DNA of 64,000 nt from Halogeometricum limi (GTDB lineage Archaea; Halobacteriota; Halobacteria; Halobacteriales; Haloferacaceae): assembly GCF_900115785.1 (NCBI RefSeq), contig NZ_FOYS01000001.1:486769-550768 (forward strand), in the 5' to 3' direction. How positions within the stretch are numbered: position 1 is the first letter of the stretch; each line of letters begins with the position of its first letter. The translations under genes were made by a program, and so were the position numbers. Shown one piece after another: positions 54,802 to 55,518 of the stretch. Under the pieces are notes generated by a model that was not told the DNA's origin, did no database searches, and saw nothing but the letters and a program-made list of their open reading frames with translations.

Positions 54802-55518
54802 ATGAGTACGACGACGACCGAACCGCGGGAGACGCTGGCGTCCGTGGTCATGGTCGACTACGGCCTCGGTAACCTCCGGAGCGCGCAACGCGGCCTCGAA
54901 CGCGCGGGCGCGGACGTGACCGTCTCCGACGACCCGTCCACGTTCGCCGACGCCGACGGCATCGTCCTGCCCGGCGTGGGGGCGTTCTCCGAGGGGATGG
55001 AGAACGCCGGTCCGTTCCGCGAGGCACTCGCCGAGGCGGCCGACCGCGGACAGCCGATATTCGGTATCTGCCTCGGGATGCAGATGCTCCTGACTTCCTC
55101 TGAGGAGGCCGCACACGCTGGTGAAGGAGAGGTCGAAGGGCTGGACTTCATCCCGGGACAGAACGTCCGCTTCGACGAGGGACAGAAGGTGCCGCACATG
55201 GGCTGGAACGAACTGCACGTGAAACGCGACCACCCCCTCGTCGAAGGGGTCGACACCGGTGCGTCGGAGACGCCCCGAGCAGACGGACCCACCGGTGGGT
55301 CCGTCGACGGGGAGTACGCCTACTTCGTCCACTCGTACTACGCCGTCCCCGAGGACGACGAGGCCATCGTCGCGACGACGGACTACGGCGTGGAGTTCCC
55401 CGCTATCGTCGCCAACGAGGAGGGCAACGTGTTCGGCACGCAGTTCCACCCGGAGAAGTCCGGTGAGACGGGGCTGACCATCCTCCGGAACTTCGTCGAG
55501 TTCTGCGCCGAGCAGTAG
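54802..55518 (+). CDS. hisH: Imidazole glycerol phosphate synthase glutaminase subunit HisH
   Basis: This 238-residue HisH supplies ammonia to HisF. It has VVMVDYGLGNLRSAQRGLERAG, the nucleophile C90 in FGICLGMQML and the H216/E218 pair in GTQFHPEKSGETG. The conserved GWNELH and YFVHSYYA segments are present. Between them is an extra block, about residues 151-168 (TGASETPRADGPTGGS), bounded by GTCGAC codon pairs and containing a 24-base perfect DNA palindrome. The family normally has a short turn here. The enzyme core looks intact, so the insert is probably tolerated in a surface loop. Confidence 0.94.
   Translation: MSTTTTEPRETLASVVMVDYGLGNLRSAQRGLERAGADVTVSDDPSTFADADGIVLPGVGAFSEGMENAGPFREALAEAADRGQPIFGICLGMQMLLTSSEEAAHAGEGEVEGLDFIPGQNVRFDEGQKVPHMGWNELHVKRDHPLVEGVDTGASETPRADGPTGGSVDGEYAYFVHSYYAVPEDDEAIVATTDYGVEFPAIVANEEGNVFGTQFHPEKSGETGLTILRNFVEFCAEQ
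55282..55305. repeat. 24-base perfect palindrome inside hisH
   Basis: ACGGACCCACC at 55283-55293 is followed without a spacer by its exact reverse complement GGTGGGTCCGT, and the flanking G and C extend the symmetry to 24 bases. It lies in an apparent 18-codon insertion flanked by GTCGAC at 55249-55254 and 55303-55308. Confidence 0.85.

Follow-up and report, generated by a model that had tools for sequence, protein, structure and literature searches.

An in-frame insert in hisH of Halogeometricum limi

The window (the whole 64,000-nucleotide stretch of DNA analyzed here, taken from positions 486,769-550,768 of contig NZ_FOYS01000001.1 of Halogeometricum limi) contains hisH, homologues of which were found in 147 of 147 relatives. 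The features of the locus are listed in Table 1. The HMGWN-FVHSY stretch of HisH comprises 48 residues in this species, as compared with 30 in all four congeners, and the insert therefore corresponds to exactly 18 codons, or 54 bp. An earlier note, made from the sequence alone, had estimated about 18 extra residues, a figure that the comparison with the four congeners makes exact. The perfect uninterrupted 24-bp palindrome that it described, GACGGACCCACC/GGTGGGTCCGTC, is present, and the two GTCGAC sequences that it had placed 54 bases apart are borne out in position. The palindrome, which the note took for the element, corresponds to hairpin 2 and makes up only half of the element, being preceded by a hairpin with a GGA loop (hairpin 1). 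The GTCGAC flanks do form a direct repeat, but the right-hand GTC belongs to the element, so that the repeat is nearer to 3 bp (GAC) than to 6 bp. A covariance model (CM) of the element matched positions 55252-55311 with a score of 62.9 bits, and 52.5 bits were obtained with a model free of hisH copies.

Table 1. Features of the insert-bearing hisH locus (positions in the window)
Feature	Position	Strand	Description
hisH	54802..55518	+	Glutamine amidotransferase subunit of imidazole glycerol phosphate synthase, 238 aa, insert-bearing
Left flank GTCGAC	55249..55254	+	Left member of the 3-bp flanking direct repeat is GAC (55252-55254), which is also the target side where the site is empty
Inserted element, 54 bp	55255..55308	+	Encodes TGASETPRADGPTGGSVD, residues 152-169; basis: comparison with four congeners without the insert, and CM match
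Hairpin 1	55257..55277	+	CGGTGCGTC-GGA-GACGCCCCG; 8 of 9 pairs formed, T-C mismatch 55260/55274; consensus stem covaries
Linker AGCA between the hairpins	55278..55281	+	Family linker is GAGCAG-like (alignments A2 and A4)
Hairpin 2	55282..55305	+	The 24-bp palindrome; homologous hairpin 2 with compensatory changes in other hisH copies
Right GTCGAC	55303..55308	+	GTC completes the stem of hairpin 2; the right member of the short flanking repeat is GAC

The predicted structure of HisH had a mean pLDDT of 86.2, and low confidence was found mainly within the insert, where residues 154-169 were below 50 and lacked secondary structure. In the prediction, the insert is positioned between the strand following GWN and the strand YFVHS, which fits a flexible, exposed loop. 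Most likely, the insert is a tolerated disordered loop without a catalytic role. That HisH with the insert is still functional is inferred from the conservation of the remaining gene, without activity data.

The element consists of two abutting hairpins

Elements of this family are approximately 45-60 bp long and consist of hairpin 1, with a 9-bp stem and a GGA loop (for example, CGTTGCGTC-GGA-GACGCAACG), a GAGCAG-like linker and hairpin 2, which occurs as GACGGC-GAA-GCCGTC or in longer forms such as GACGGACCCACC/GGTGGGTCCGTC. The two arms of the stems varied in concert, as in GTTGCGTC/GACGCAAC, GGGGCGTC/GACGCCCC and GTTGGGTC/GACCCAAC. In an alignment of 21 copies (A2), 96.8% of the cells paired and 30 cells carried a double change, against 8.1 in shuffled alignments (0 of 500 reached 30); an alignment of 53 copies (A4) had 89 double-change cells, against 21.1 in shuffles. 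Slid controls for A2 and A4 gave no value close to those observed. A4 was fitted to the model and so leans towards the structure, whereas A2 and a third alignment were produced by MAFFT without model fitting. Class B copies encode another peptide (..EASDDASSSRTQSGDD; for example, DSEASGDASGSRTESGDG) from the same kind of hairpin DNA, because their loop lengths differ, and the reading frame is still restored. In the cupin gene of two genomes (G134 and G092; L132:1432-1536 and L197:1470-1574, both on the minus strand), a further hairpin unit was nested inside hairpin 2, yielding a 105-bp in-frame insert; judging from these nested units, elements may accept further elements.

Recurrence in the host genome and taxonomic range

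The search of the host genome for the palindrome, as proposed in the earlier note, returned this one occurrence only: no second copy was found with up to three mismatches allowed. Because the palindrome is single in the host genome, a search restricted to it would miss the family and suggest chance; the family was seen through other patterns and models. The 24-base core TCGGAGACGCAACGAGCAGACGGA (three mismatches or fewer) was detected in 23 of the 147 relatives, mostly outside hisH, and its reversed control pattern had no match in the 147.

Models R1 and R2 were built from matches that they then score, and only R3, built solely from copies in genes other than hisH, constitutes a held-out test. 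R3 returned the copy in the window as its best match in the host genome (E = 1.4e-10; next, E = 2.8e-4). It also matched ten other carriers of the hisH insert at 30.9-59.4 bits and found nothing above 22.9 bits at the loci of insert-free hisH genes. The 24-bp palindrome is thus more than a chance occurrence: it is the second stem of a recurrent element with covarying stems, at a site that the hisH-free model ranks first. With the first model, the maximum in twelve unrelated genomes was 27.1 bits, on which ground host-genome matches of 23-30 bits were regarded as noise. The second-best element-like match in the host genome (G000:C6:76057-76113, L212; 35.1 bits with R2 and 29.0 with R3) lies in a 337-aa open frame and is probably a chance match or a decayed copy.

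Among 295 genomes sampled from the phylum, 39 had a match at E <= 1e-6, all of them Halobacteriales (39 of the 53 listed from the order), with none outside. Within the samples searched, no member of the family fell outside Halobacteriales. Copies on plasmids were located inside annotated protein genes in Haloterrigena turkmenica (pHTUR04), Halorientalis sp. IM1011 and Halosolutus gelatinilyticus, where the frame was checked, and also in Haloterrigena salifodinae. Searches of phage records, of viral contigs (with one exact pattern) and of E. coli did not yield the element. No Rfam 15 match above the gathering score was obtained in six element-bearing loci, except for a tRNA next to one copy.

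In-frame copies in unrelated genes and copies of non-triplet length outside genes

At a threshold of 36 bits or more, 75 genic copies were identified in 47 host-gene groups other than hisH, in 42 haloarchaeal genomes. The host genes encode biotin carboxylase, a heavy-metal P-type ATPase, a cupin protein, DNA topoisomerase I, a class-V aminotransferase (SufS-type), PheT, MetG, a ThiD-like kinase, a thiolase, another class-I aminoacyl-tRNA synthetase and others. When the frame was determined from flank codon usage, independently of the element, 57 of the 75 copies were in sense orientation and frame 0, 18 were undecided and none was antisense or in another frame. Length was divisible by 3 in 72 of the 75, and in the other three the match boundary seems to be shifted by one base. 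Copy number was low, at about 1-6 strong copies per genome, and only the hisH copy is strong in the host genome; near-identical copies were present in different genes. The proposal of the earlier note, a palindromic element inserted in frame in the manner of the RPEs, is supported by these in-frame copies of the same DNA in many unrelated genes, and is further backed by the compensatory stem changes, the empty sites in close relatives and the non-genic copies.

Nine non-genic copies were 50, 53, 53, 53, 53, 55, 55, 59 and 59 bp long, none of these lengths being divisible by 3; the non-genic assignment of the weakest copy (L223) is uncertain. Taken together with the different peptide of the class B copies, the in-frame genic copies and the non-genic copies of non-triplet length are better explained by insertion of DNA and subsequent selection for open frames than by selection of a single peptide. 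Five of the nine interrupt the IS605-type terminal palindrome CCCGCCGTGAAC^GGCGGG or a relative of it, and tnpB (OrfB_IS605) adjoins three of these five. The unsplit palindrome was detected in 31 of 99 genomes, with 0 control matches, and the genic targets (GAC^GGC) resemble the split palindrome target.

Two further arrangements were noted. One non-genic copy, in G006 (L172:1501-1559, minus strand), directly adjoins a tRNA gene. At L210, L211, L218, L228 and L198 (G004, G001, G002 and G016), element-like units adjoin a kinase N-box and read (N/D)SVEHGSTSSRTQSGD(T)VEHG, sometimes twice running; L211 is a histidine kinase by Pfam, and the native motif NSVEHG resembles one arm of hairpin 1.

Empty sites and target sequence

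The absence of the insert from close relatives and the existence of other copies in related genomes had both been put forward in the earlier note as tests of its proposal, and the outcome was positive in each case. The hisH site reads GTCGAC[54 bp]GGGGAG when filled and GTGGACGGGGAG when empty in G002, and the empty hisH sites of congeners conform to GT[GA]GACGG. A thioredoxin-like gene reads CGCGAC[45 bp]GGCGAG in G003 as opposed to CGCGATGGGGAG in a same-genus relative, and a ThiD-like gene reads CTCGAC[45 bp]GGCTAC in G004 as opposed to CTCGACGGCTAC in G001. As far as read, each of these three sites is filled in one of five congeneric species. Among the genic copies with GAN on both flanks, the third base agreed in 33 of 40, compared with 24.1 expected (p = 5e-5), which suggests a 3-bp duplication; target preference and D/E codon bias could partly cause the 3-bp flanking repeat.

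The insert at hisH across haloarchaea

Homologous inserts were found at exactly the same position of hisH in other genera and families of Halobacteriales, where the HMGWN-FVHSY stretch spans 38 to 50 residues, and close relatives of several carriers lack the insert. Several other genera thus carry a homologous insert in hisH, which is therefore not peculiar to this genome. In a HisH tree computed without the insert, the backbone largely follows genera, and at least 10 changes are required to account for where the insert occurs. When the source genome (G000) was compared with a genus of another family, codons were identical at 12 of 12 shared insert residues, as opposed to 60% in the rest of hisH. 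Averaged over all carrier pairs, codon identity was 68% in the insert and 63% elsewhere, a small difference, and the high identity is therefore limited to some carrier pairs. CGA, GCA and GGA are recurrent codons of the hisH inserts. The hisH copies have in common a long, locus-specific hairpin 2, from which it follows that spread at hisH was mostly by inheritance or recombination and not by repeated transposition. No short recombination tract around the insert was apparent from the identity of its flanks.

Shorter hisH inserts, such as GVEGGRGGSVDGEY, occur in L010, L011, L013, L022 and L027 (g25) and in L114-L119 (g3), and resemble copies that have decayed or been deleted in part, with only the terminal GGSVDG retained. 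Recoding was considered for the g3 hisH genes (G006, G033, G052, G067, G077 and G085; L114-L119) and rejected, as the apparent in-frame TGA is the normal stop, which the match had overrun. A second hisH-like gene, approximately 58-64% identical to the query, was present in G126, G129, G030 and G076.

Discussion

As a whole, the insert in hisH is best explained as a copy of a dispersed, RPE-like coding element that is non-autonomous, belongs to Halobacteriales and consists of two abutting hairpins of approximately 45-60 bp in total, a reading to which we assign a probability of about 0.88. Its recurrence, the covarying hairpins, the in-frame sense copies in genes, the non-genic copies and the precise absence from close relatives were all observed directly; its mode of movement is inferred. 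The element would move or spread as hairpin DNA into GAC^GGC-like targets, although no transposition was seen, and the enzymes for movement would probably be supplied in trans, although no mobilizing enzyme was identified. New genic copies would survive only if the frame is kept and if they land in surface turns, often D/E-G-E, and survivors would then be translated as an acidic, flexible loop. At hisH, one or a few insertions may have been followed by repeated loss or exchange among lineages, possibly through deletion between the short flanking repeats and through recombination; given the long hairpin 2 common to the hisH copies, this history explains the locus better than repeated insertion.

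An ordinary, length-variable surface loop of HisH with a palindrome arising by chance would account for an insert peptide that hisH of other genera shares with varied DNA and for the several loop lengths, and a hand estimate assuming independent bases suggests that, somewhere in a GC-rich genome of 3.6 Mb, a single perfect palindrome of 24 bp would be no surprise. The same DNA is nevertheless found in dozens of unrelated genes and outside genes, its stems covary between copies and the held-out match reaches E = 1.4e-10, so we give this explanation almost no credence; an ordinary homologous HisH loop was likewise dropped, as the insert codons are conserved across families and the core is present in other genes. 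Removal of the segment before translation, as an archaeal intron or another RNA segment, is just as hard to sustain. Introns are known in archaeal protein genes and the insert is rich in hairpins, but a removed segment needs neither a length that is a multiple of 3, found in 72 of 75 genic copies, nor frames open on both sides, and the only Rfam match in six element-bearing loci was a tRNA. Selection at the protein level for the motif SETxRADGEAVDG, as an acidic salt-adaptive or interaction tag acquired by convergence or gene fusion, has slightly more in its favor, since the sense frame is always the same where it can be decided and the peptide is acidic, hydrophilic and predicted to form a loop in HisH. 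It remains improbable, because the changes in amino acids are concerted and leave codons and both stems intact, non-genic copies have lengths not divisible by 3 and hairpin DNA of this type encodes another peptide in the class B copies.

Less easily set aside, though we still doubt it, is the possibility that the element has lost its mobility and that the insert travels among haloarchaea solely as an allele of hisH, through homologous recombination. The 10 or more gains or losses at one site on the hisH tree, the identity of all 12 insert codons between G000 and a different family against a 60% backbone, and the common long hairpin 2 all speak for it. On the other side, the single-species copies elsewhere in the genus (thioredoxin-like gene of G003, ThiD-like gene of G004) and the near-identical copies in different genes suggest fairly recent insertion. 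Within the reading of a dispersed coding element, we tentatively raise the idea, without claiming that it is probable, that these unusually small coding palindromes, a family spread across the haloarchaeal lineage, are a parasite of IS200/IS605-type transposons: they would normally land in terminal palindromes as single-stranded hairpin DNA, and look-alike AC^GGC sites in genes would gain a ready-made, in-frame, salt-compatible loop, so that the element would serve as a natural source of inserted protein segments in essential enzymes.

Coding palindromes have precedents. RPEs are palindromic elements of approximately 105-150 bp in Alphaproteobacteria (Ogata et al. 2000; PMC2229807, PMC10969869). 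RPEs and the coding palindromes of Wolbachia resemble the present element in that palindromic DNA is translated in frame in many unrelated conserved genes, also occurs outside genes and is tolerated in non-structured segments (PMC2229807, PMC10969869). Thus, in-frame insertion in many unrelated genes and non-genic copies are features that our element meets, whereas size and structure are not: the RPE is a long stem-loop of approximately 100-150 bp with terminal inverted repeats, and the haloarchaeal element is mostly 45-60 bp with two separate abutting hairpins. The niche of insertion differs from that of RPEs as well. Palindromic repeats with coding potential have been reported in Methanocaldococcus jannaschii (Suyama et al. 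2005, cited in PMC2996958, PMC2229807), which is also an archaeon but of a lineage distant from Halobacteriales.

Closer in host is SMR-A of Haloquadratum walsbyi, a transposase-free element of approximately 110 bp with terminal inverted repeats that is inserted within near-terminal palindromes of IS605-type transposons and PATEs (PMC3119063). It shares with our element a haloarchaeal host, the lack of a transposase, inverted repeats and the niche in IS605-type or PATE near-terminal palindromes, which the five non-genic copies confirm. However, no in-frame coding insertions are reported for SMR-A (PMC3119063), and the present element is half that length and mostly genic; a length of approximately 110 bp, prominent terminal inverted repeats and the absence of target duplication do not apply to it, given its approximately 45-60 bp and the agreement of its 3-bp flanking repeats. 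PATEs and IS200-IS605-type ends are similar in being short elements with palindromes near their ends (PMC3119063), but here the IS605 palindrome is the target split by the element, with no evidence that the element derives from it. PARCEL repeats are likewise palindromic coding sequences spread horizontally, but they are tandem amphipathic repeats, and none is reported in archaea (PMC2996958). No earlier description of the peptide SETQRADGE or of haloarchaeal coding palindromes was found in the open-access literature (subscription papers were outside the scope), and the two-hairpin family is apparently undescribed so far.

The element is probably selfish DNA that is now part of many proteins, and with it the range of in-frame "selfish" coding DNA, for which intracellular bacteria are the best-known hosts, now includes free-living halophilic archaea with well-developed genetics. 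Its hosts include housekeeping proteins (aminoacyl-tRNA synthetases, topoisomerase I, biotin carboxylase, a SufS-type enzyme and HisH). With such hosts in tractable haloarchaea, excision, fitness, transposition and effects on protein structure are directly testable. The element accounts for one kind of puzzling short indel seen when haloarchaeal proteins are aligned, and ties it to the biology of IS605-type transposons.
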